Source of the DNA: Saprospiraceae bacterium
GTDB lineage: Bacteria > Bacteroidota > Bacteroidia > Chitinophagales > Saprospiraceae
Assembly (NCBI GenBank): GCA_013002475.1
Contig: JABDJM010000417.1
Location: 1-11,139 of the forward strand
Reading direction: 5' to 3'
DNA: 11,139 nucleotides
The notes under the pieces are model-generated. The model worked only from the letters and a program-made list of their open reading frames with translations, had not been told where the DNA came from and did not search any database. Of this stretch, positions 598 to 11,139 are shown piece after piece; positions within the stretch are counted from its first letter, which is position 1; each line of letters begins with the position of its first letter. The position numbers were made by a program, and so were the translations under genes.

Positions 598-972
598 TTA
601 AGCACCTTTTACCGCAGCTTCAGGGTCATACGTGATCATAAGATGCATCCAAAGCGCCCTTGAGCCACGCAAAAACCGGAAATAAGTAATAGCTGCGATC
701 GCTAAAGCTACTCCCATACCAGCATATAGGGACCAATCATATACGAGGACAAGAACCAGGGTTGGGATCAAAATGAACCAACCGGAAAGGATATAGGAGA
801 TAAACATGGCTCCATAGTAAAACCCAGGCTCAGGAAGCATTTTTTGATGGCAAACCTCACAAGTTTCAGGCATGTCCAGGGGGTCTGACATCTTAAAGGG
901 TTTGGCAAACATATTCCCCTGGCGGCAGCGTGGACATTTATATTTCCAGATAGATTTAAATGATAAGCCCAT
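598..972 (-). CDS. DUF983 family zinc-ribbon membrane protein
   Basis: This 124-residue protein matches the DUF983 layout: an N-terminal zinc-ribbon-like part with two CxxC pairs (C13/C16 in CPRC and C38/C41 in CEVC), the FYYGAMF segment at 51-57, and then two hydrophobic membrane spans at about 55-78 and 82-98. The biochemical role of DUF983 is not established. The ATG at 972 lies one base after the stop of the upstream YeeE/YedE gene (TAA-T-ATG), so it is almost certainly co-transcribed and translationally coupled with the transporter pair. It is the last gene before the 266 bp gap. Four cysteines in a soluble knuckle are compatible with metal binding or thiol chemistry; this context alone does not show a sulfur role. 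Confidence 0.85.
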   Translation of the reverse strand: MGLSFKSIWKYKCPRCRQGNMFAKPFKMSDPLDMPETCEVCHQKMLPEPGFYYGAMFISYILSGWFILIPTLVLVLVYDWSLYAGMGVALAIAAITYFRFLRGSRALWMHLMITYDPEAAVKGA

Positions 973-973
973 A

Positions 974-1387
974 TTAATGCGGTAAGAATGATTTCAAAGC
1001 TCCATAAACAAAGGCTCCCAGGATGGCCGCTAAAATGATAATTCCGATTATCCAGTAACCATGCCCGAATAAAACATAAAGTGGTCCGGGACAAGCCCCG
1101 GTCATCGCCCATCCAAGACCAAAGGCGGTACCACCAAAAAGAGCGGCTTTATATAAGGGCGGCTTATCCTTGAAAGAAAAGCTTTTTCCCAATGAATTCT
1201 TCAGGGATGTTTTTTTCAACCAAAAGTGAAGAAGTGCACCTAAGATCACCGCTACCCCTATGATCCCATACATGTGGATACTTTGGAAGCGGAACATTTC
1301 CTGAATTCGAAACCAACTGATGGCTTCTGATTTTGTCATAACGATCCCAAAAAGGATCCCGGTTAAAAGAAATTGAATCAGTCGCAT
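974..1387 (-). CDS. YeeE/YedE family (DUF6691-type) sulfur transporter, C-terminal half
   Basis: A 137-residue hydrophobic protein with about four membrane spans (roughly 3-18, 38-57, 80-100 and 108-130). The signature GTAFGLGWAMTGACPGP at 86-102 contains its only cysteine, C99, in the GxCPGP setting conserved in YeeE/YedE proteins. Full-length members such as TsuA transport thiosulfate by passing it along membrane-buried cysteines; here the equivalent protein is two separate polypeptides, and this one looks like the second half. Split pairs of this kind (also called PmpA/PmpB) commonly accompany persulfide dioxygenase and rhodanese genes. The start lies 2 bp after the stop of the first half. 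Likely role: inner-membrane import of thiosulfate or a related sulfane-sulfur species together with the upstream product. The exact substrate is inferred. Confidence 0.87.
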   Translation of the reverse strand: MRLIQFLLTGILFGIVMTKSEAISWFRIQEMFRFQSIHMYGIIGVAVILGALLHFWLKKTSLKNSLGKSFSFKDKPPLYKAALFGGTAFGLGWAMTGACPGPLYVLFGHGYWIIGIIILAAILGAFVYGALKSFLPH

Positions 1388-1389
1388 GA

Positions 1390-1971
1390 TCAGATATTAA
1401 AGATGATTGGATACAGAATATGAGTCACTAACAGACCTCCGATAAAAAAGCCAACAACGGCTACCAATGACGGGAGCTGTAATTCGGAAAGGCCACTAAT
1501 GGCATGTCCTGAAGTACATCCTCCTGCCCATCTGGTTCCGAAACCAATTAGGAAGCCTCCGAGAACCATGAGAATGATCCCACGGGCTGTGGCTAGGTTT
1601 TCAAAAGTAAAAAGGTCCAGAGGGATGAAACCGGGATTCTCCTCAACATTTGAAGGGTAAGAAATCCCAAGTTCAGCAAGGTCTGAAATGGTTGCCTGAC
1701 TGATAGCTACTGGTTCAGGGCTGGCAAAAACAGTGGAAGCAATTGCTCCGCCAATTATGGTACCAATTACAAACACAAATAGCCAGTCATGGCCCTTCCA
1801 ATCGTATCTGAAATATTCAAATCTTTTTCCGGCGCCTGCTACACTGCAGACTGCTTTAAAGGAAGAGGAAATCCCAAATCGTTTTCCCAGGAAGATCAGG
1901 ATAAACATGACCACTACGATCATGAATCCTGAGAAGGACCAGTGCCAGGGTTGAGAGATAAAATCGATCAT
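1390..1971 (-). CDS. YeeE/YedE family sulfur transporter, N-terminal half
   Basis: A 193-residue membrane protein. Spans are visible at about 13-30, 63-83, 131-148 and 168-190. The family signature [22 protein letters not shown] occupies about 143-164, with C152 the likely substrate-contacting thiol; C42 is a second cysteine near the end of the first cytoplasmic loop. It pairs with the shorter gene 2 bp downstream, so the two together probably form one pseudo-symmetric transporter. The family includes the thiosulfate transporter TsuA and the PmpA/B proteins linked to sulfide detoxification operons. It follows the persulfide dioxygenase gene by 92 bp, a gap that holds a strong hairpin. No clear Shine-Dalgarno precedes the ATG; the leader is A/T-rich. 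Confidence 0.9.
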
Positions 1972-2063: not shown

Positions 2064-3473
2064 CTAGCTAAATGTACTAGGGCATACATAGTCTGAAACG
2101 GGCAGCTTCGTTTCTTTCATATCCTGAAATCCTCCAGCAATATCCACAAGGTTGTGGTAGCCTCTTGATTTCAAGATCGAAGCAGCAACCATTGACCTGA
2201 AACCACTTTTACAATGCAGGTAAAAGGTTTCTTCTTTTGGGAAAGAAGCCAGGTAATCATTTAGTGAGCTCAAAGGCGTATTCCTGGAATCGACCACATG
2301 CTCTGATCTGTGCTCAGTGGATTTTCGTACATCGAAGACTGGCATCTGTTTATTGTAAGCATTGGCAAATTCTTCAGCAGGGACAGATTTAACTGTATCC
2401 ACCTCTTTTCCAGCAGCAACCCAAGCCTCTATTCCGCCTTTCAGATATCCCATTGTATTATCAAACCCTACTCTGGAAAGACGGGTGACTGTTTCTTCTT
2501 CACGGCCTTCCGGAGTTACAAGAAAAATGGGTGTTTTGACATCCCTGATAAGAGCTCCTACCCATGGGGCAAAAGTCCCATCAATTCCGATAAAGATTGA
2601 TCGAGGCACGAATCCTTTGGCAAAGTCCTGTGTATCTCTAACATCCAGAACAAGTGCCTCATTGGCCTCAACTTCCAGTTCGAAAGCTAAAGGATCCAAA
2701 GCTCTTGTTCCCTGGTTAATAACTTTTTGTACATCCGCATAACCCTCTTTGTTCAGGCGAACATTTTCAGGGAAATATGCAGGCGGTGGTGCAAGCCCAT
2801 CAGTTACTTCTTTTACAAACTCTGCTTTAGTCATGTCTGCTCTCAAAGCATAGTTGACTTCCCTTTGGTTACCCAGTGTATCCACAGTTTCTTTCATCAT
2901 GTTTTTTCCACAAGCTGATCCAGCTCCATGTCCAGGATAAACAATCGTTTCATCAGGTAGAACCATGATCTTTTCACGGAGACTATCAAAAAGTGTCTCT
3001 GCCAGTTGCTCTTGGGTCATGCTGGCTGCTTTTTGAGCAAGGTCCGGGCGACCAACATCTCCCAGGAATAAGGTATCACCGGAGAAAATCGCATGTTCCT
3101 TTCCATTTTTATCTAATAGAAGGAAAGTAGTTGATTCCATAGTGTGACCAGGAGTATGCAATACTTTGATCTTTACATTTCCAATTTCAAATACTTGTTC
3201 GTCTTTAGCTACGATGGCCTCAAATTTCGGAGCTGCGGTTGGTCCGTAAATGATGGGAGCTCCGGTTAATTCTGAGAGGGTAACGTGGCCACTGACGAAG
3301 TCAGCGTGGAAATGGGTTTCGAAAATGTATTTCAACTTTACACCATCATTTTCCATTTTTTCAATATAAGGCTGAACCTCACGTAAAGGGTCAATAATGG
3401 CTGCCTCCCCGTTAGAGGTAATGTAGTAGGCTCCCTGAGCCAGACATCCGGTATATATCTGTTCGATATTCAT
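2064..3473 (-). CDS. CstB-like persulfide dioxygenase with two rhodanese domains
   Basis: A 469-residue three-domain protein. Residues 1-245 are an ETHE1-type metallo-beta-lactamase fold. The T-H-F-H-A-D motif at 53-58, TPGHT (H110), SGDTLF (D133) and YPGHGAGSACG (H182, C188) give the mononuclear iron ligands expected from ETHE1 (H54, H110, D133). Residues 260-355 form a rhodanese-like domain with no cysteine at the active-loop position (IFLVTPEGREEE), a pseudo-rhodanese. Residues 365-460 form an active rhodanese with C421 in HCKSGFRS. This order matches staphylococcal CstB, which oxidises persulfides to sulfite and, through its rhodanese, can yield thiosulfate. It is cytoplasmic, with no signal peptide. 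It lies 45 bp after a stand-alone rhodanese and before the transporter pair. The sulfite or thiosulfate it makes would connect to those neighbours. Confidence 0.93.
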   Translation of the reverse strand: MNIEQIYTGCLAQGAYYITSNGEAAIIDPLREVQPYIEKMENDGVKLKYIFETHFHADFVSGHVTLSELTGAPIIYGPTAAPKFEAIVAKDEQVFEIGNVKIKVLHTPGHTMESTTFLLLDKNGKEHAIFSGDTLFLGDVGRPDLAQKAASMTQEQLAETLFDSLREKIMVLPDETIVYPGHGAGSACGKNMMKETVDTLGNQREVNYALRADMTKAEFVKEVTDGLAPPPAYFPENVRLNKEGYADVQKVINQGTRALDPLAFELEVEANEALVLDVRDTQDFAKGFVPRSIFIGIDGTFAPWVGALIRDVKTPIFLVTPEGREEETVTRLSRVGFDNTMGYLKGGIEAWVAAGKEVDTVKSVPAEEFANAYNKQMPVFDVRKSTEHRSEHVVDSRNTPLSSLNDYLASFPKEETFYLHCKSGFRSMVAASILKSRGYHNLVDIAGGFQDMKETKLPVSDYVCPSTFS

Positions 3474-3518: not shown

Positions 3519-3806
3519 TTATGCTGCTTTAGCCAGGTGGGTTTTTACTTCTGAAGCGTTTACGCCGTTGTATACATCCTTAAAACCTTTGCTTTTCAAA
3601 AAGGCGACAGCTTGTCCGGAACGGTTCCCACTTTGGCAATAGAATACTTTGGGGCCTGTCATTTCTTCAAGCCTGCTCATATACTCTCCAAATCTGGAAA
3701 GAGGAAAATGAAAAGCGCCCCCTACATGGCCCATTGAATACTCAAAGGACTCTCGAACGTCTATGATCTTTAGATCCTGGTTTTGATAAACTTCATTAAA
3801 ATTCAT
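3519..3806 (-). CDS. single-domain cytoplasmic rhodanese (sulfurtransferase)
   Basis: A 95-residue single rhodanese domain. IIDVRESFEYSMGHVGGAFHFPL (about 14-36) is the CDC25/rhodanese N-terminal motif and CQSGNRSGQA (57-66) is the active-site loop with catalytic C57. There is no signal peptide or membrane segment, so it is a soluble cytoplasmic sulfur carrier that accepts sulfane sulfur as a Cys persulfide and passes it to a thiol acceptor. It starts 12 bp after the thioredoxin stop and ends 45 bp before the persulfide dioxygenase. That position suits a relay: thiosulfate or persulfide sulfur moves through this protein to a thiol, and the resulting persulfide is the dioxygenase substrate. 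The donor and acceptor are inferred. Confidence 0.9.
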   Translation of the reverse strand: MNFNEVYQNQDLKIIDVRESFEYSMGHVGGAFHFPLSRFGEYMSRLEEMTGPKVFYCQSGNRSGQAVAFLKSKGFKDVYNGVNASEVKTHLAKAA

Positions 3807-3818
3807 GATTGATTATTT

Positions 3819-4124
3819 TTAGTTGGCGGCTTCCAACTGGGTTTTTAAAGCATACAAACTTTGCATTCCGGATTCACGCCAGACCGGCTTTCCTTCTTTG
3901 TAAATAATGAAAGTTGGAACTCCGCGGATCTTGAGTTTTTCCGCAAGCTTGCGGTTTCGGTCTATATCGACCTTTACGATCCGAGCATTTCCTCCCATCT
4001 CCTTTGCTAATTCAGAAAGGACGGGAGCCATCATTTGACAAGGCCCGCACCACGCGGCAGTAAAGTCTACGAGTACAGGAACCTCCTGGTTTATGATGTC
4101 GTTAAAAGATTTTTTCTCAGGCAT
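3819..4124 (-). CDS. trxA: thioredoxin
   Basis: A 101-residue classical thioredoxin: VLVDFTAAWCGPCQMMAPVL at 18-36 with the redox pair C26/C29 (WCGPC), VDIDRNRKLAEKLKIRGVPTF at 52-72 with the cis-proline P70, and no signal peptide. It reduces protein disulfides and can reduce persulfides on rhodanese or release sulfide from them. It is the first gene of a unit continuing into rhodanese, persulfide dioxygenase and transporter genes, and has its own well-formed promoter and palindromic operator. It is probably the dedicated reductant of this cluster rather than the housekeeping thioredoxin (inference). ATG 4124 is preceded by an A/T-rich leader without a Shine-Dalgarno, which is normal in Bacteroidota. 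Confidence 0.95.
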   Translation of the reverse strand: MPEKKSFNDIINQEVPVLVDFTAAWCGPCQMMAPVLSELAKEMGGNARIVKVDIDRNRKLAEKLKIRGVPTFIIYKEGKPVWRESGMQSLYALKTQLEAAN

Positions 4125-4150
4125 ACTATTGTTTTGAAGTATTTCTGAGA

Positions 4151-4158
4151 CAAAGGTA
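4151..4158 (-). promoter_or_regulatory. -7 box TACCTTTG of the thioredoxin promoter
   Basis: The minus strand reads TACCTTTG, a full match to the Bacteroidota -7 consensus TAnnTTTG, ending 26 bp before the thioredoxin ATG. At the -33 position only a partial element is seen (GTTTC, 4180-4176, 17 bp upstream). A weak -33 with a good -7 suggests activator dependence. Confidence 0.62.
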
Positions 4159-4180
4159 GGGATGTATCTAAGTTCGAAAC

Positions 4181-4194
4181 GTGATGTTCATCAC
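4181..4194. promoter_or_regulatory. Crp/Fnr-type operator GTGATGTTCATCAC
   Basis: A perfect 14-bp palindrome, GTGATG-TT-CATCAC, lies in the 85-bp gap before the thioredoxin gene. It fits both TGTGA-N6-TCACA (CRP) and TTGAT-N4-ATCAA (FNR), reading GTGAT-N4-ATCAC. Its centre (4187.5) is exactly 33 bp upstream of the centre of the TACCTTTG box, near -41.5 from the expected start of transcription, the class II activator position. The second palindrome in the window, before the peroxiredoxin, has identical spacing. Confidence 0.65.
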
Positions 4195-4209
4195 ACTAGA
4201 AATCGGGGG

Positions 4210-4629
4210 CTATTGAACAGCTTTATCCTCTTGGTTGGTCCAATCAAGGTATCCCCCATCTAGGTTATAAACCATAGGGAATCCCTCCTTTTGCATCATA
4301 CGGGCAGCTTGTCCGGATCGGTTGCCAGAACGGCAATACAGAAGATATTCTTTATCCTTAGCAAGGGACTTCATTTTCGATTCAAAATCCGGTCCATTAA
4401 AGTCCAATTCCTGGGCACCGGGGATTTTGCCCATAGATATTTCTGATGGGGTACGTACGTCAATTAAGACCCGGTCTTTGGTCCCGATGAGTTTGGCGAA
4501 CTCTTCCACTCCGATATCTTTCACCACAGGGGGTCCAGCTGCTTCAGGCGTTGAAACCACTTTTTCTCCGCAAGAGCAAAACAACAAGGATATGGCTATG
4601 GCAGCGAGAAGATATAGGGAAGATTTCAC
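4210..4629 (-). CDS. rhodanese-domain lipoprotein (envelope sulfurtransferase)
   Basis: A 139-residue protein with a lipoprotein signal peptide: MKSS, a hydrophobic stretch at 5-17, and a lipobox-like FCSC with C20 the likely lipidated cysteine (C18 is an alternative). A short linker rich in Pro and Ala (28-36) leads to one rhodanese domain: VLIDVRTPSEISMGKIPGA at 54-72 and the active loop CRSGNRSGQA at 99-108 with catalytic C99. It is therefore an envelope-anchored sulfur carrier, unlike the other rhodaneses here. The start is GTG at 4629: the same frame is closed upstream by the stop of the preceding gene and no ATG lies between. It follows the membrane hydroxylase gene by 15 bp. It may pick up thiosulfate or polysulfide sulfur outside the cytoplasm; this is inferred. 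Confidence 0.88.
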   Translation of the reverse strand: MKSSLYLLAAIAISLLFCSCGEKVVSTPEAAGPPVVKDIGVEEFAKLIGTKDRVLIDVRTPSEISMGKIPGAQELDFNGPDFESKMKSLAKDKEYLLYCRSGNRSGQAARMMQKEGFPMVYNLDGGYLDWTNQEDKAVQ

Positions 4630-4644
4630 GGCTAGGAGATTTAA

Positions 4645-5712
4645 TTATTGAACAGGTTTAATTCTTTCGTAATCATCCGCATTATAGGACTTATCAGAAA
4701 AACCTAATACGTTTTGCTTAACAAATTTCTCCGGAAACCGATCTATTCCAGGAAAACCCAGCTTAATGTCCCTCCCCTCTTTCGGAATATAGGCTGTTCC
4801 AAATATATAATCCCAAAGCGCCAAAGTGATCCCAAAATTGATCCCGTAGCGCCTCTCAGGTGGAAGTTCATAACTATGATGCCAGATATGCATTTCAGGG
4901 CTATTGAAAATCTTGGGCATGAATGGTCCAAGAATAAAAATTCCAGCCAGGACTGACCCAAGAAATGCCAGTATTTGTACTCCGCTGGAAGGATCTGTCA
5001 GCAAATTCACTTCAAGCAATGCCTGACTGATCACGATCCCGATCAGGGCACCTACGATCCCACCAGTGATCCTTCGATCAACGGAAATGTTTGAATGGTT
5101 ATAATGTCCCCAGGAAAGGGCAAAAATATGGATGACAAAAAAGTCGTATAACCCAATCCCCAATAGAGCAAGGGGAATGTATTCAAGAGTCCGATAGACC
5201 ACATTTTCCATCCAATGGTAACGGAGATGGGCAGCAAAGCCCATTTCTTCTACTGAATGGTGTACCTGGTGAAATTTCCACAGTCGGTCAGACTTATGAA
5301 GAAGTCGATGCACCCACCATTGGACAAAGTCTCTGACAACAAATCCAATGAGAAGAATGGACCAATAAGGAAAGTTTCGCATTGGGTTACTTGCCTGAAG
5401 ATCAAATCCCCCTGCAATGCTTTTTATTCCATCATTAAAAAGGTTGACCACTACATCTGAAACTGCTGAGTAAATGATCAGGGAAAAAAGAAAAAAGTTG
5501 AAGAACATATAAAATGCATCCAACCAAAAGTCTTTTCTAAATGTAGCTTGCTTTTTCCGCCATGGAATAACGATTTCAAGTAAGAAGAAAAATAGGGAAA
5601 CCCCAATCAACCAATAAAAATAATTGGTCCATGAGGGATGAGTAATTTCATGCCACAGATAATTGGCATAGCCTTTATATCCGTTCAGGAATATTTCCCA
5701 ATACTTGCTCAT
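4645..5712 (-). CDS. sterol desaturase / fatty acid hydroxylase superfamily membrane protein
   Basis: A 355-residue integral membrane protein with the three histidine clusters of the di-iron hydroxylase/desaturase superfamily: HRLLH at 135-139, HQVHH at 148-152 and HIWHH at 275-279, plus GHYNH at 202-206. Hydrophobic spans are at about 30-49, 66-86, 117-133, 179-200, 216-236 and 246-266. Members use O2 and two iron atoms to hydroxylate or desaturate a lipid; the substrate cannot be told from sequence. Its ATG overlaps the SulP stop by 4 bp (ATGA), so the two are translationally coupled, and the rhodanese lipoprotein follows 15 bp later. Why a lipid-modifying enzyme sits in a sulfur operon is unclear; membrane remodelling or a sulfur-containing lipid are possibilities only. 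Confidence 0.9.
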   Translation of the reverse strand: MSKYWEIFLNGYKGYANYLWHEITHPSWTNYFYWLIGVSLFFFLLEIVIPWRKKQATFRKDFWLDAFYMFFNFFLFSLIIYSAVSDVVVNLFNDGIKSIAGGFDLQASNPMRNFPYWSILLIGFVVRDFVQWWVHRLLHKSDRLWKFHQVHHSVEEMGFAAHLRYHWMENVVYRTLEYIPLALLGIGLYDFFVIHIFALSWGHYNHSNISVDRRITGGIVGALIGIVISQALLEVNLLTDPSSGVQILAFLGSVLAGIFILGPFMPKIFNSPEMHIWHHSYELPPERRYGINFGITLALWDYIFGTAYIPKEGRDIKLGFPGIDRFPEKFVKQNVLGFSDKSYNADDYERIKPVQ

Positions 5713-7439
5713 GCGTTTGATTGAAGGCTTAGTCCTTTTCGTTCAGAGGTAGGATCATTAAACTTTTTTCCATCAATAAAGTCTACAGCATCCTGGATCT
5801 TCATAAAGATCCGGTCCTTACCTATCTTTTCAAGCAGATGGGCCTTGGTAAATGCATCTCTGATGGGGCCTTTCATTCCACTGAAGAATAAATTGATGTC
5901 ATGCTTTTTAGCATTTTGAAGAATATCCTCAATGACATGCAATGCTGAACTATCAATATTATTTATGGGTTCGAAGTTTAAGATAACAGCCTTCAAGTCT
6001 TCTCCCTTTTGATCCGCATATTCATTCAAAGCACTTCGGAATTGGTCTGAATTTCCGAAAAATAATGAAGCGTCAAAACGCATCACCAAAAGTTCTGGTC
6101 GATCCTCAAGATCATCGAACCGTTCAAGGTTTCTATACAGGTCTGTTCCTTTTACTCTTCCCAAGGCTGCATGATGTGGATAAGCAGTTTGAAAAATTAT
6201 CATTACTAAAGAAAGGATAACACCTACCAAAACCCCTTGTTCAATACCTAGTCCAAGGGTGGCAAAAAAGGTGACCAACAGCATTGCCAGATCCCTCCTG
6301 TTAACCTTCCATAAATGCAGAACTTCCCTCCAATCGATAAGACCAAAAACAGCTACCATAATTACGGAAGCTAGTATCGCGTTTGGCAGATAATAAAAAA
6401 GCGGTGTTAGAAACAGAAGGGTTAAACCAACTAATAAAGCACTAATAATGCTTGCCATCCCCGTCTTCGCTCCCGCCTGATCATTGACCGCTGTTCTGGA
6501 AAAACCTCCCGTAACAGCATAGCTTTGAAAGAAGCTTCCTACCACATTGGCAAGTCCCAGGGAAACTAATTCCTGGTTGGCACTTAATTTATAGTCTTTA
6601 TGCTTTGCCTGGATAGCCTTTGCAACTGCAATACTCTCCATAAAACTTACCAGAGCGATAGCCAGGGCGACCCCGGTTAGGGAACCTAAAGAATCAAGGC
6701 TAAAATCAGGCACAGAAAAAATCGGCAAGCCTTTAGGCACTTCACCAACAATTTTCACACCCTCTGGCACGAGGTTAAATCCTACAACGGTCAGGATACC
6801 AAATATCACAGCAACCAATTGGGCCGGGATCGCCTTGTGTATCCTCTTTGCGAGAAGGATAACCAGGATCCCAACTACTCCAATTCCTAGAGCATAGCTA
6901 TTGGTTTCTCCGATCCGGCTGATCGCCTCGCCCACAATTTCATGGAAATGATGTGACCGTCCCAATGGGATTCCCAGCAGGTGTTTTAATTGGCTAATTC
7001 CAATGATCAAAGCTGCTGCTGAGGTAAATCCTGATATAACGGGATGTGAAAGGAAATTCACCAGGAAGCCAAGTCGAAAGGCACCCATCAGGAACTGGAT
7101 GGCACCCACCATAAAGGCAAGCAATATGGCTAATCCAATGAATGCCTCGGTGCCTCCTTCTGCAAGTGCCCCAACGCCGGTTGCGGTCAATAGGGATACC
7201 ATTGCCACAGGACCAACTGCCAGTTGACGGGATGTTCCCAACAAGGCATAGATGATCAGAGGAATAGTTGAGGCGTAAAGACCGTAAATGGGAGGAAGGC
7301 CAGCTATCATTGCATATGCCATTCCCTGTGGGATCAGCATAACACCCACCGTCAATCCGGCGGCCAAATCACTTTTGAAAAAGGATGAATTGTATCCCTT
7401 TCCCCAATCTAGTACAGGCAACATCCCTTTCCAATTCAT
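5709..7439 (-). CDS. SulP (SLC26-type) anion transporter with C-terminal STAS domain
   Basis: A 576-residue transporter of normal SulP length. The N-terminal signature LTVGVMLIPQGMAYAMIAGL lies at 29-48, followed by PPIYGLYAS (49-57), about 10-14 membrane helices up to residue 418, and the conserved AVTGGFSRTAVNDQAGAKTG segment at 308-327. A cytoplasmic STAS domain follows at about 447-557 with NIDSSAL at 494-500, the loop associated with nucleotide or partner binding. SulP proteins move sulfate, bicarbonate or related anions. In a pathway ending in sulfite or sulfate, sulfate movement is the natural guess, but bicarbonate cannot be excluded. It begins 9 bp after the Crp/Fnr stop and overlaps the next gene by 4 bp, so it is within the peroxiredoxin-led operon. 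Confidence 0.92.
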   Translation of the reverse strand: MNWKGMLPVLDWGKGYNSSFFKSDLAAGLTVGVMLIPQGMAYAMIAGLPPIYGLYASTIPLIIYALLGTSRQLAVGPVAMVSLLTATGVGALAEGGTEAFIGLAILLAFMVGAIQFLMGAFRLGFLVNFLSHPVISGFTSAAALIIGISQLKHLLGIPLGRSHHFHEIVGEAISRIGETNSYALGIGVVGILVILLAKRIHKAIPAQLVAVIFGILTVVGFNLVPEGVKIVGEVPKGLPIFSVPDFSLDSLGSLTGVALAIALVSFMESIAVAKAIQAKHKDYKLSANQELVSLGLANVVGSFFQSYAVTGGFSRTAVNDQAGAKTGMASIISALLVGLTLLFLTPLFYYLPNAILASVIMVAVFGLIDWREVLHLWKVNRRDLAMLLVTFFATLGLGIEQGVLVGVILSLVMIIFQTAYPHHAALGRVKGTDLYRNLERFDDLEDRPELLVMRFDASLFFGNSDQFRSALNEYADQKGEDLKAVILNFEPINNIDSSALHVIEDILQNAKKHDINLFFSGMKGPIRDAFTKAHLLEKIGKDRIFMKIQDAVDFIDGKKFNDPTSERKGLSLQSNA

Positions 7440-7448
7440 ACAGCTCAG

Positions 7449-8099
7449 TTACATTGTTAAATGGATCTTATTTCTCTCGAGTTTAACCTTCCCGTTTTTC
7501 TCCAATTTTTTCAAAAGCCTGGAAATGGCTTCCCGTGAAGCATTTAAATCCAGGGCAATTTTTTGGTGGGTAGTTTCCAAAGTTTTTGAGTTCAAAGCAA
7601 AAGCCGTTTTTTCCAAATAATCGACAAGTTGTTCATCCAGCTTAGAAAAAGCTAATCGGTCAACAGTATCGATCAGAGAGAACAATCTATAATCATACAT
7701 ACTGAAGATGAAATTCCGCCAGTCCGCATACTTCCCCATCCATTCATCTGCAGCTTCCAGAGGTATCAGCAACAAGGTGCTATCTTCTTCTGCGACTGCC
7801 ATGATCTCTGAGCGCTTTTGTACAAGACAACAAGAAAATGAAGCTGCACAAGTATCGCCCGGAGTGAGGTAGTAAAGGAAGACTTCATGATCATTTTCAT
7901 TCAGCCTGCTCACTTTCAGACTACCCTCCAGAACCAGGGGCAAAAATTTGATCTTATCCCCATAGTCAATGATTATTTCGGCACTTTGAACTTTTTCAAT
8001 TTTGGCCTTTTCTTCTAACTCAGTCAGGAGTTGTTGGTCTGCGAGACCAGGAAAATTTAACCTGATTCTTTTCCTAGTCTCCTCGTTATTTATACTCAT
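7449..8099 (-). CDS. Crp/Fnr family transcriptional regulator with a cysteine cluster
   Basis: A 216-residue protein: cyclic-nucleotide-binding-like beta-roll at about 20-120, dimer helix at about 125-160, and a winged helix-turn-helix at 176-214 (THQKIALDLNASREAISRLLKKLEKNG). The recognition helix carries R189, E190, S193 and R194, i.e. the positions corresponding to CRP R180/E181/R185 and FNR E209/S212/R213. The beta-roll contains C84, C90 and C91 (GDTCAASFSCCL); there is no N-terminal FNR-type [4Fe-4S] Cys set, and the cAMP-binding R-S/T pattern is not evident. A thiol-based or other small-molecule signal is more likely than cAMP. It lies 32 bp after the peroxiredoxin gene with no visible promoter, so it is probably autoregulated through the operator at 8838-8851. 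It is the likely regulator of both palindromes in the window (inference). Confidence 0.92.
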   Translation of the reverse strand: MSINNEETRKRIRLNFPGLADQQLLTELEEKAKIEKVQSAEIIIDYGDKIKFLPLVLEGSLKVSRLNENDHEVFLYYLTPGDTCAASFSCCLVQKRSEIMAVAEEDSTLLLIPLEAADEWMGKYADWRNFIFSMYDYRLFSLIDTVDRLAFSKLDEQLVDYLEKTAFALNSKTLETTHQKIALDLNASREAISRLLKKLEKNGKVKLERNKIHLTM

Positions 8100-8131
8100 A
8101 TCAAAACTTAACAGAATAGTCCTGAAAAGCT

Positions 8132-8791
8132 TTAAGCTAATGCTTTTTCGGCAAGATAAAAATCGACTTTTTCCAAAGTTTCATCGGCCAGACGCTCATT
8201 CATTTCATCCAAGGTTTTTGGGGGAGGAACGATGACGTTTTCACCAGGTTTCCAGTCAAGAGGCATAGCAACTTTGTGCTTATCAGAGACCTGGAGTGCT
8301 TTAAGAACCCTAAGGATCTCATTCATGTTTCTTCCGACATTTAGCGGGTAATACATGATCAGACGGATCTTCTTTTTTGGGTCTATGAAGAACACAGCTC
8401 TGACGGCAGCAGTTTCACTTTCATTTGGCTGCAACATCCCATAAAGCTTGGAGACTTTCATATCGATGTCTGCGATAATGGGAAAATCGAAATAAACGCC
8501 AGTTTTCTCTCTGACATTATTAACCCATCCAAGGTGGGCATGAACGGAATCAATACTGAGACCTAATCGCTCAGTATTTAATTCTTCAAACTCATTCTTT
8601 CTTTTTGCAAAACCACTCATCTCGGTGGTGCAGACTGGGGTGAAATCAGCCGGGTGGGAAAAGAGGACAATCCACTTATTTTTCCCGAAATCTGAAAATC
8701 TTAAACGGCCTTGGGTTGTGATGGCCTCAAAATCAGGAGCGGAATCACCAATTCTTGGCATTGAATATCCACCTATAGTGTTGTTTTCCAT
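8132..8791 (-). CDS. 1-Cys (Prx6-type) peroxiredoxin
   Basis: A 219-residue peroxiredoxin of the Prx6 class: IGDSAPDFEAITTQG at 14-28, active loop HPADFTPVCTTE at 46-57 with peroxidatic C54 and H46, and a long C-terminal dimer region with DWKPGENVIVPPP at 178-190. C54 is the only cysteine, so the enzyme must be recycled by an external thiol. It reduces peroxides and might act on persulfide-type substrates. ATG 8791 gives an expected 5' leader of only about 13 bases from the predicted promoter. The internal ATG at 8761 (M11, SMPRIGD) is preceded by AGGTGG at 7-nt spacing, a good Shine-Dalgarno, and gives a family-like N-terminus, so the protein may really be 209 residues. It leads the unit with the regulator, SulP and hydroxylase genes. 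Confidence 0.93.
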   Translation of the reverse strand: MENNTIGGYSMPRIGDSAPDFEAITTQGRLRFSDFGKNKWIVLFSHPADFTPVCTTEMSGFAKRKNEFEELNTERLGLSIDSVHAHLGWVNNVREKTGVYFDFPIIADIDMKVSKLYGMLQPNESETAAVRAVFFIDPKKKIRLIMYYPLNVGRNMNEILRVLKALQVSDKHKVAMPLDWKPGENVIVPPPKTLDEMNERLADETLEKVDFYLAEKALA

Positions 8792-8807
8792 GATAATTAA
8801 TTTTCCA

Positions 8808-8815
8808 CAAAAATA
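8808..8815 (-). promoter_or_regulatory. -7 box TATTTTTG of the peroxiredoxin promoter
   Basis: The minus strand reads TATTTTTG, a full match to TAnnTTTG, ending 16 bp before ATG 8791 (46 bp before the alternative ATG 8761). No good -33 element is seen at the normal spacing; the nearest TTG is only 11 bp away. This fits a promoter that needs the activator bound at the adjacent palindrome. Confidence 0.62.
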
Positions 8816-8837
8816 TCACGGAGAACCAAGATGGTCT

Positions 8838-8851
8838 GTGACACATGTCAC
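8838..8851. promoter_or_regulatory. Crp/Fnr-type operator GTGACACATGTCAC
   Basis: A perfect 14-bp palindrome, GTGACA-CA-TGTCAC, overlaps the last codons and stop of the upstream rhodanese gene. Its centre (8844.5) is 33 bp upstream of the centre of the TATTTTTG box (8811.5), the same distance as at the thioredoxin promoter and near -41.5 from the expected transcription start. It matches GTGA-N6-TCAC; compared with the thioredoxin site the fifth base is C instead of T. Confidence 0.62.
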
Positions 8852-9240
8852 TCACTCGCAGGGCTCTCGATAGAGTCAGATTCTTGTACCAATAATCCTT
8901 CCCTCAAATTGAAGACTTTGGTAAAACCCAAGTTATTGAGGATCACACAAACGCGAGTGATTCGCCGGCCGGTCCGGCAATAGACCAGGTAGGTCTTTTC
9001 AGGATCAAGGGCTTCCAATTCATCCGCCAGGTTATGCGAAAGGTAGTCGATGTTGGTGGCACCCTCAATTTTGTCAGTATTGAACTCTTCCGGGGTCCTG
9101 ACGTCCAGGATAATGGCATCCGGGTAATTTTCTACCAGTGTTAGGAACTTACCAAAAGCCAGATTATTCAGACTGGCTTTTAGCATGCCCCACCTGGATA
9201 TTTGACAGTCAGCCCCAGATTTATCAATATTCGGATCCAT
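8848..9240 (-). CDS. rhodanese-domain sulfurtransferase
   Basis: A 130-residue soluble protein with one rhodanese domain: IILDVRTPEEFNTDKIEGATNIDYL at about 43-67 and the active loop VYCRTGRRITRV at 86-97 with catalytic C88. C12 and C98 are additional cysteines. The first ~20 residues are an extra N-terminal segment; M19 (GMLKASL) could be the true start, but ATG 9238-9240 sits only 2 bp after the molybdoenzyme stop and suits coupling. It is transcribed with the molybdoenzyme, so it may deliver or accept sulfur for that enzyme's substrate. The peroxiredoxin operator overlaps its stop codon. The arrangement Mo-enzyme followed by rhodanese supports a sulfur substrate for the former (inference). 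Confidence 0.9.
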   Translation of the reverse strand: MDPNIDKSGADCQISRWGMLKASLNNLAFGKFLTLVENYPDAIILDVRTPEEFNTDKIEGATNIDYLSHNLADELEALDPEKTYLVYCRTGRRITRVCVILNNLGFTKVFNLREGLLVQESDSIESPASE

Positions 9241-9242
9241 TC

Positions 9243-11139
9243 TTAATCCCTAAGATAATACAGATCTTCCTGAGGTTTTAGTGGCCTTTTGAACCAAAGT
9301 GGTCTTCTCAGTCCATTTGGTCCCGGAGCCGGACGGGTCATTGCTAACCATTCCCGATAATTCTCCATTGATCGGTTTGTATCCACCATAATATCCCCGT
9401 ATTTATCACCGGGACTTGGTTTTTCGATCCTTACCCTTTGGTGCCAGCAATGCATGCCGCTAATAGGGTCCGGATGTACCGCATGGGTTATGTTCTGGTG
9501 GACTCCACCATCCACCCAGAAGATCCTCTTACTATCATTATCATCACTTTGGAAAGGTTTTACTCCGGACTTAGTATTCATTGTCCACTTTCCATCACCA
9601 TCATTTTCGATCCTCACTGTGTTAGTGGCCCATCGATTCCCTTTGTCCTGCTCTCTACGCCAGCGACCCAGGTGGTGGGAGCAAGCAACCACACCAGGCT
9701 TCATGCCTTGAGTAACCCAGACTTTATCAACGAAGTAGCCAATATCAGTATTCATTTTAACAATGTCCCCTGTTTGGAAACCCCATCTTGCCGCATCATC
9801 AGGATGCATCCATATTGGATTTCTGTTACTGATCTCCATCAACCATTTTGCATTTCCAGAACGGGAGTGGATCAGCGTCGGAAGCCGGAATGTTGGAACA
9901 AGCACATACTCACCTTTTTCCTTATCTAGTTTCTCTGGGTGGATGTGACTTTTGATATAGGAAGGGATAGCGTACTCAGGCCACTTCCAGTCAACCATGG
10001 TCTGACTGAAGAATTCATTCTTCATGCTTGGTGTCGGGAATCCTACTCTCGCCTCACCATTAACTTTCACCGCAACATTTTTTCCATTTTTGGAATAAAC
10101 GTTGGTTTCCGGATCAAAGTCGGCACCAGCCAATTTCTCCTCTGACACTACTTTATCATTCATCTTGTAGTTATGGGGTGCCACTTCAAAGGCTCCATAT
10201 CTACGCATATATTGAAGTTCTGTCAGACCTTCTTTCTTAGCTGCTTCAGGAAGGTTAGGAGTTCTTTCAAAGATGTATTGGTAATATTCATCAATGTTTA
10301 TCTTTTCTCCTTCTCTGTATGGAGACATAAAGTGCTTCCGCACCCCTAGCGAACCATCCGGATCAATCCTCCAACTCAATTCAATCCAAAATTCATCTTC
10401 TTCCCAAACTTCTCCCGGGTTCGTTTCATAGGTGAATTCGACTGTTTTTCCGGCCCTTCGCGCTGCTTCCCTAAGTACAGGTTGCCTGAAGGCGATCCAT
10501 TTGCCTGAGTGAGTTGCATAACTATTGAGATCATGCCGTTCAGCACTATGTCCCATTGGAAGGACCAGATCTGCAAAAAAGGCGGTCTCGTTCCAGGTTG
10601 GTGTCAAAGCGATATGCATCCCAAACAGCGACTCTTCTTTCAGGGCTTCCATCCAGGTAAATCCATCAGGATAAGTCCACACAGGATTGAACACCCGGGT
10701 GAAATACGTATCCATTTTTCCCCGTCCCTCTTTCAACATATGAGGAAGCAGGAAGCTCATTTCAAAATAGGCTAGCGGGTACTCTTTTGGGAAATGTAGC
10801 TCATTCCAGAATTTCTGTCCCGGAGGGACAGAGTGGAACTGTGGCTTGAACTTACTCCAGCTATTTGGAGAGGTTCCTCCCTTGGACCCCACACTTCCGG
10901 TAACGATATTCAAAAAGTGTAGAGCTCTGGATACGCACCAGCCTCCGAGATTTCCGCTAGCAGCTGCTCGCCAGTTATGGGTGGCGAATCGCTCTCCCGC
11001 TTCTCCGATTTTCCGGGCTACCTCAACGATCATATCCACTTTCACACCGGATTCTTTCTCTGCATATTCCGGCGTAAACTCAGCATATTCTTCAATTACT
11101 TTTTCGATGAAGGTTTCAAAGGTGCTCGGGACTCCTGGG
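9243..11139 (-). CDS. molybdopterin oxidoreductase catalytic subunit (DMSO reductase family), C-terminal part, start outside the window
   Basis: The minus frame is open from the window edge to TAA at 9245-9243, giving 631 residues; a GTG at 11045 is internal, because the preceding 31 codons are open and protein-like. Landmarks: SRALHFLNIVTGSVGSKGGTSP, a conserved segment of Mo-bisPGD enzymes; LTPTWNETAFFADLVLPMGHSAERHD, the usual pterin-domain strand where substrate-specific families read DVVLP; and a C-terminal molybdopterin-dinucleotide-binding domain with NRNPIWMHPDDAARWGFQTGDIVKMNT and GMKPGVVACSHHLGRWRR. About 560 residues follow the RALHFLN segment, so the full protein is probably 900-1000 aa, closer to sulfite-oxidising SoeA than to PhsA/PsrA, though the family is not settled by sequence alone. 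Partner FeS and membrane subunits, if present, must lie upstream. A rhodanese follows 2 bp downstream. Confidence 0.9.
   Translation of the reverse strand, partial: PGVPSTFETFIEKVIEEYAEFTPEYAEKESGVKVDMIVEVARKIGEAGERFATHNWRAAASGNLGGWCVSRALHFLNIVTGSVGSKGGTSPNSWSKFKPQFHSVPPGQKFWNELHFPKEYPLAYFEMSFLLPHMLKEGRGKMDTYFTRVFNPVWTYPDGFTWMEALKEESLFGMHIALTPTWNETAFFADLVLPMGHSAERHDLNSYATHSGKWIAFRQPVLREAARRAGKTVEFTYETNPGEVWEEDEFWIELSWRIDPDGSLGVRKHFMSPYREGEKINIDEYYQYIFERTPNLPEAAKKEGLTELQYMRRYGAFEVAPHNYKMNDKVVSEEKLAGADFDPETNVYSKNGKNVAVKVNGEARVGFPTPSMKNEFFSQTMVDWKWPEYAIPSYIKSHIHPEKLDKEKGEYVLVPTFRLPTLIHSRSGNAKWLMEISNRNPIWMHPDDAARWGFQTGDIVKMNTDIGYFVDKVWVTQGMKPGVVACSHHLGRWRREQDKGNRWATNTVRIENDGDGKWTMNTKSGVKPFQSDDNDSKRIFWVDGGVHQNITHAVHPDPISGMHCWHQRVRIEKPSPGDKYGDIMVDTNRSMENYREWLAMTRPAPGPNGLRRPLWFKRPLKPQEDLYYLRD

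Follow-up and report, generated by a model that had tools for sequence, protein, structure and literature searches.

Two identically spaced promoter sites in a Saprospiraceae sulfur/thiol gene island as candidate operators of a cysteine-bearing Crp/Fnr-family regulator

The thioredoxin (trx) and peroxiredoxin (prx) promoters of a Saprospiraceae bacterium carry the same palindrome at the same distance from the same promoter box. Both sites are probably class II operators of the Crp/Fnr-type protein encoded at 7449-8099, which would activate a sulfur/thiol regulon. The DNA analysed here, called the window, is one contig, taken as the whole stretch of 11,139 nucleotides.

In the proposed mechanism, a dimer of the regulator on GTGA-N6-TCAC at -41.5 would contact RNA polymerase at a TAnnTTTG promoter of the Bacteroidota type and turn on two units belonging to a single regulon, each predicted to be a separate transcript. 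The first unit would be prx-crp-sulP-hydroxylase-rhodanese, and the second trx-rhodanese-MBL/rhodanese-yeeE-yeeE-DUF983 (MBL, metallo-beta-lactamase). With its gene inside the prx unit, the regulator would control its own synthesis. Arg189, Glu190 and Arg194 are expected to read the GTGA half-site, and Cys84, Cys90 and Cys91 may sense persulfide or another sulfur/redox signal. If this is true, Bacteroidota, a phylum with unusual promoters, have a conserved sulfur-response circuit for which a candidate regulator, an operator, a spacing and a likely sensor site can be named. More tentatively, the protein may represent a Bacteroidota-wide Crp/Fnr family whose cAMP pocket was turned into a C84/C90/C91 persulfide/polysulfide switch. 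Its operator would have moved between GTGA-N6-TCAC and GTAAC-N4-GTTAC together with the residue at the CRP Glu181 position, while spacing and regulon stayed unchanged. This would be a naturally occurring example of a regulon-wide change in which an operator base seems to have shifted along with a single recognition residue.

Layout and spacing of the trx and prx sites

The main genes of the window are on the minus strand (Table 1). The prx side consists of a molybdopterin oxidoreductase piece, a rhodanese, the prx promoter, peroxiredoxin, the Crp/Fnr regulator, a SulP permease, a fatty-acid-hydroxylase-like protein and a rhodanese. The trx promoter is followed by thioredoxin, a rhodanese, an MBL-rhodanese fusion, two half-length YeeE genes and DUF983. 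The half-length YeeE genes (974-1971; 137 and 193 aa) resemble the PmpA/PmpB type (PMC11582611). The hydroxylase-like gene (4645-5712) is a lipid-type enzyme inside a sulfur unit, and homologues of it were found elsewhere directly after a gap-22 site (L198) or a gap-23 site (L050).

Table 1. Promoter elements and genes of the window
Feature	Position	Strand	Remark
Whole trx site	4194..4151	minus	GTGATGAACATCAC-N22-TACCTTTG
Operator, trx unit	4181..4194	minus	GTGATGAACATCAC; exact pattern match; predicted centre -41.5
Promoter box, trx unit	4151..4158	minus	TACCTTTG (TAnnTTTG class); 22 bp after operator
Whole prx site	8851..8808	minus	GTGACATGTGTCAC-N22-TATTTTTG
Operator, prx unit	8838..8851	minus	GTGACATGTGTCAC; exact pattern match; overlaps stop codon of upstream rhodanese gene
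Promoter box, prx unit	8808..8815	minus	TATTTTTG (TAnnTTTG); 22 bp after operator
Molybdopterin oxidoreductase, C-terminal part	9243-11138	minus	truncated at contig end; NCBIfam matches far below cut-offs
Peroxiredoxin (AhpC/TSA + 1-Cys Prx C-terminal domain)	8132..8791	minus	first gene after prx promoter
Crp/Fnr-family regulator, 216 aa	7449..8099	minus	Pfam cNMP_binding + HTH_Crp_2
SulP-family permease with STAS domain	5709..7439	minus	domain match
Fatty-acid-hydroxylase-like membrane protein	4645..5712	minus	Pfam FA_hydroxylase
Rhodanese domain protein, N-terminal signal-like segment	4210..4629	minus	last gene of prx unit
Thioredoxin	3819..4124	minus	first gene after trx promoter; TIGR01068 above cut-off
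Small rhodanese	3519..3806	minus	domain match
Metallo-beta-lactamase/rhodanese fusion	2064..3473	minus	commonest gene class after gap-22 sites, 24/133; putatively persulfide-dioxygenase-like, NCBIfam equivalogs below cut-off
Half-length YeeE-type sulfur transporter subunit	1390..1971	minus	Pfam Sulf_transp
Second half-length YeeE-type subunit	974..1387	minus	Pfam Sulf_transp/DUF6691
DUF983 protein	598..972	minus	homologues directly after GTAAC sites in relatives

An earlier note on this DNA had claimed an identical operator-to-box geometry at the two promoters. Our results showed that the geometry is exact in both: GTGA-N6-TCAC, 22 bp and TAnnTTTG, with 33 bp between the centres of operator and box. 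Both palindromes have perfect 6-bp arms, and the symmetry is broken at the central dinucleotide only. A scan of the window for degenerate sites (two or fewer mismatches in total, gaps of 21-23) yielded two more candidates: one on the minus strand at 1633-1646, within a yeeE gene, and one on the plus strand, where the trx palindrome pairs with a box that has two mismatches. The sigma-70 and terminator scan of 4100-8900 was not above its shuffles.

Class II activators of the Crp/Fnr type bind at -41.5. Mapped starts in Flavobacterium psychrophilum have TAnnTTTG at positions -12 to -5 (PMC9723704). Because of this box position and the 22-bp gap, the operator centre is predicted at -41.5, which agrees with the earlier proposal of an operator near that position, and the geometry thus places both operators at the class II position.

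The palindrome alone means little, because it occurs 17 times in the whole genome and the reversed pattern also 17 times. Inside the window, five matches were found at one mismatch or fewer, against 3.1 expected. The combination with the box is different: TAnnTTTG stands at gap 22 in 3 of 34 oriented palindromes of the genome, where the window's box density predicts about 0.012. The third genomic copy lies outside the window (G000:C486:3292-3335). We then counted the exact gap-22 pattern in 150 evenly drawn genomes of the family (the source genome is 82% complete) and obtained 215 matches, spread over 78 genomes; the reversed control gave 9. When gaps from 7 to 37 were profiled in the same genomes, 78 of the 150 matches listed had gap 22 and 18 had gap 23, and every other gap was represented by 0 to 5 of those matches. 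The site geometry is far beyond chance.

The equal palindrome counts speak for a chance match or a copied segment, but the spacing peak, the 215 matches against 9, and the return of the site in front of the same genes, in flanking DNA that differs, leave these two readings with next to no probability. Both were ruled out by the reversed control and the spacing profile, and the earlier statement that the two sites are not a copied segment holds.

The spacing also bears on the mode of action. A regulator acting as repressor would cover the promoter until a signal releases it. The direction of regulation is unreadable from sequence, and among the known persulfide sensors with other folds repressors are frequent; SoxR of Hyphomicrobium is an example (PMC10451225). 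A repressor is nevertheless very improbable here, as the gap is nearly fixed at 22-23 bp and the predicted centre at -41.5 is the class II activator position. Because of this nearly fixed gap, the predicted class II contact is favoured over simple blocking.

Genes downstream of the sites in relatives

For 133 distinct gap-22 sites out of the 215 matches in the family, the first gene was read as the longest ORF starting within 300 nt downstream. An ORF was present at 123 of the 133 sites, and 10 gave none. A homologue of a window gene came first at 73 sites: MBL-rhodanese at 24, rhodaneses at 18, SulP at 10, trx at 10, prx at 5, Crp itself at 3, YeeE at 2 and the fatty-acid-hydroxylase at 1. 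The ORF at the other 50 had no window homologue, which counts against our reading. The trx and prx counts include the two sites of the window. The palindrome is conserved before orthologues of both genes, and its lack there, which the earlier note had named as a refutation, was thus not observed. In relatives, sites were also found directly before the regulator gene (L035, L081, L095). These results agree with the clustering at sulfur and thiol genes that the earlier note had proposed to look for in this genome and in related ones.

Further first genes outside the window set encode YgaP-type membrane proteins, OsmC, MsrAB and SoxA/TsdA-type cytochrome c. Pyr_redox_2 flavoproteins after two sites are read as SQR-like (L047) and thioredoxin-reductase-like (L085). 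First genes without a clear sulfur role (HemN, Cu-ATPase-like, PaaA-like, two carbonic anhydrases, porins) were counted against the regulon.

A larger set, which includes loci chosen for nearness to regulators and is thereby biased towards sulfur genes, had a window homologue downstream at 84 of 170 gap-22 sites, 3 of 11 gap-23 sites and 0 of 18 sites with other gaps, 11 of which had an ORF. The 276 boxless palindromes of this set (137 with ORF) gave 16 window homologues.

The third genomic site precedes a small-protein ORF truncated by the contig end (…LGLAPFYPEPHIFGKIRWVLGG…; G000:C486:3292-3510). Similar small proteins follow gap-22 sites elsewhere (L084, L148, L164), and one with a rhodanese domain (L334) follows a GTAAC site. 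The motif LGLAPFxPEPHxxGKxRW recurs in this protein at L084, L148, L164, L334 and the third site, and no Pfam match was found in the copies searched. Outer-membrane-efflux-like proteins repeatedly follow GTGA or GTAAC sites (L150, L366, L374, L388, L391, L393, L395, L398, L404, L410). Three genomes have a Tll0287-like domain protein after a gap-22 site (L069, L141, L179).

The regulator and related proteins

The protein at 7449-8099 matches Pfam PF00027 and PF13545 above cut-off and thus belongs to the Crp/Fnr superfamily. It is not CRP proper, as the counterpart of E72 is A86 and the NCBIfam CRP profile gives 41 bits against a cut-off of 266. Nor is it FNR proper, which has an N-terminal cysteine set for a [4Fe-4S] cluster. 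The only cysteines of the window regulator are C84, C90 and C91, which lie in the pocket segment, and the NCBIfam Fnr profile gives 27.6 bits against a cut-off of 228.

These cysteines are well kept. Among 135 homologues, C84 is present in 134, C90 in 115, C91 in 114 and all three in 112; among the database homologues listed, 119 of 120 have CxxxxxCC. Named organisms among the homologues are Phaeodactylibacter luteus, Saprospiraceae and Bacteroidetes MAGs. R82 and S83 of CRP are cAMP-contacting residues and align with R96-S97 of the regulator; S97 is invariant in a 56-row alignment. CRP E72, a position named as cAMP-binding (PMC6603298), aligns with A86, where the profile has Met. The pocket is altered yet not plainly dead, because the E72 counterpart is A86 but R96-S97 is kept. 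We count this retention of the phosphate-binding pair, with a pocket only partly changed, against the main reading.

Conserved cysteines and a sulfur regulon, as in persulfide-sensing regulators, are both present. C84, C90 and C91, beside the former cAMP pocket, may respond to persulfide or to a different signal of sulfur or redox type. A bridge or a persulfide at these residues would be the most economical sensor; haem, a metal, a nucleotide and plain redox sensing are the alternatives.

By profile alignment, R189, E190 and R194 correspond to R180, E181 and R185 of CRP. The second G:C pair of TGTGA is contacted in CRP by E181, on the C, and by R185, on the G (PMC11253593). R189 and R194 are kept in 135 of 135 homologues, and at position 190 there are 95 with Glu and 40 with Val.

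The window regulator resembles E. coli CRP in its fold (profile match to 4bh9, E = 6e-17), in the retained R180-E181-R185, in the GTGA/TCAC half-sites and in the predicted centre at -41.5 (PMC9723704). It differs in lacking Glu at the E72 counterpart, in the three cysteines of the pocket segment, in a regulon of sulfur/thiol genes and in the TAnnTTTG box. The best PDB match to the family profile is 3dv8, a Crp/Fnr-family structure (E = 4e-33), which has cysteines at the C84 and C90 counterparts but Ile at that of C91.

SoxR of Hyphomicrobium, a sulfane-sulfur-responsive regulator, has a fold other than Crp/Fnr, to which the window regulator belongs by Pfam. In H. denitrificans it likewise controls sulfur oxidation and transport genes (PMC10451225, PMC11582611), but it is a repressor (PMC10451225).

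A closer precedent for the recognition residue is HcpR. The operator is wTGTGAnnnnnnTCACAw for HcpR of Desulfovibrio and GTAACnnnnGTTAC for HcpR2 (PMC1274295), and Rodionov and colleagues found that HcpR residue 181 correlates with an operator base (PMC1274295). As HcpR2 is defined in that text, its residue 181 is Pro (or Ser, Gln), while all 135 homologues of the window family have Glu or Val there; and the HcpR/HcpR2 regulon is one of hcp and nitrosative stress (PMC1274295), while sulfur genes are found here. The window family is thus not HcpR2 by this definition. The residue-base recognition rule is already known from HcpR (PMC1274295), and what is added here is its occurrence in this sulfur regulon. 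In the open-access literature searched, no description of the regulon or of such a sulfur circuit in Bacteroidota was found: the parts are of known kinds, and their combination is undescribed there.

Residue 190 and operator type within and beyond the family

The sites co-occur with the regulator. Of the 74 genomes whose homologue is at least 42% identical, 65 have sites, as do 13 of the 76 other genomes. Because the identity bands overlapped, this cut-off was replaced by classes of residue 190 and cysteines, which cover 116 of the 150 genomes; the other 34 have no homologue at E 1e-20. Among the 75 genomes that have Glu190 together with C84/C90/C91, 66 carry GTGA sites (193 sites), against 5 of 34 Val190 genomes (6 sites). 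Genomes with only Glu190 homologues missing the full cysteine set had sites in 3 of 7 cases (6 sites). Two results were counted against the link: sites in 4 of the 34 genomes where no homologue was detected (10 in all, G134 alone having 6), and the absence of a perfect site in 9 of the 75 Glu190 three-cysteine genomes.

If Glu190 reads the second G:C pair, a different base is to be expected at this place in the sites of Val190 proteins. Consistently, the perfect gap-22 palindromes near Val190 regulators were GTAAC-N4-GTTAC in 3 of 3 cases. GTAAC-type gap-22 sites, defined by C at position 5 or G at position 10, occurred in 14 of 31 Val190 three-cysteine genomes versus 8 of 75 Glu190 three-cysteine genomes (p = 2e-4); their absence in the remaining 17 of 31 was counted against. 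The loose pattern GTAA-N6-TTAC is largely background, because the family gave at least 53 matches among those listed versus 28 for the reversed control, and loose matches without the C or G had no window homologue downstream.

The 48 distinct GTAAC-N4-GTTAC sites include 26 before window homologues (MBL-rhodanese 13, rhodanese 4, YeeE 3, DUF983 3, SulP 2, Crp 1), and SQR-like, TauE-like and outer-membrane-efflux-like genes follow others. In the clade with Val190, the operator has shifted from GTGA to GTAAC. The link between residue 190 and operator appears to be mostly clade-level: an independent-pairs test on the tree, which has low power, had 3 supported pairs and no significance.

One genome, G164, has both types. 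Its Glu190 gene goes with GTGA sites, and it also has a Val190 paralogue; immediately downstream of this paralogue are two GTAAC sites, which precede a TauE-like gene and an MBL-rhodanese. Paralogues ranking below the best hit were covered in part, and G164 was counted as Glu190.

The sites could instead belong to another Crp/Fnr protein of oxygen-, NO- or cAMP-type, with the local regulator as just one of its targets. The half-site pair GTGA-N6-TCAC is general among CRP-like sites, a few of the downstream genes are of kinds known from other Crp/Fnr regulons (HemN, Cu-ATPase-like), and the genome, 82% complete, codes for at least one other Crp/Fnr protein of distant relationship (E = 1e-4). 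We consider this explanation unlikely, because site presence tracks the orthologue of the local regulator and its residue 190, and in G164 the two site types go with two paralogues. The local protein remains the preferred regulator; the Crp/Fnr regulon first proposed from the window is supported by site conservation before orthologous genes, by co-occurrence and by residue-base covariation with this protein.

Some Glu190 paralogues without the CC pair lie near GTGAC-N4-GTCAC at gap 22 or 23 (L311, L314, L315, L316, L320, L321, L322, L323, L083), and several of these sites precede YgaP-type membrane proteins.

The phylum sample comprised 296 genomes, 290 of them outside the family. Outside the family, 23 of the 108 genomes that have a homologue contain GTGA gap-22 sites, versus 4 of the 182 without one (p = 1e-7); for GTAAC-N4-GTTAC the numbers are 21 of 108 versus 2 of 182 (p = 3e-8). 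In the whole sample, GTAAC-N4-GTTAC gave 52 matches and its control 0, and GTGA gave at least 40 among the matches listed versus 9 for the control. Sites outside the family precede homologues of prx, SulP, MBL-rhodanese, YeeE, YgaP-type and OsmC genes.

The Glu/Val rule is looser outside the family. At 27 loci outside it or at its edge, 17 regulators had Val190, 6 of them in genomes that also have a GTGA site, which was counted against; 7 had Glu190, 5 with a GTGA site, and 3 were unreadable by script. GTAAC gap-22 sites were also present in G398 and G406, both without a detected homologue of the regulator. One of the GTAAC sites in such homologue-free genomes (L382) precedes an Hcp-like protein, fitting the HcpR2 regulon (PMC1274295).
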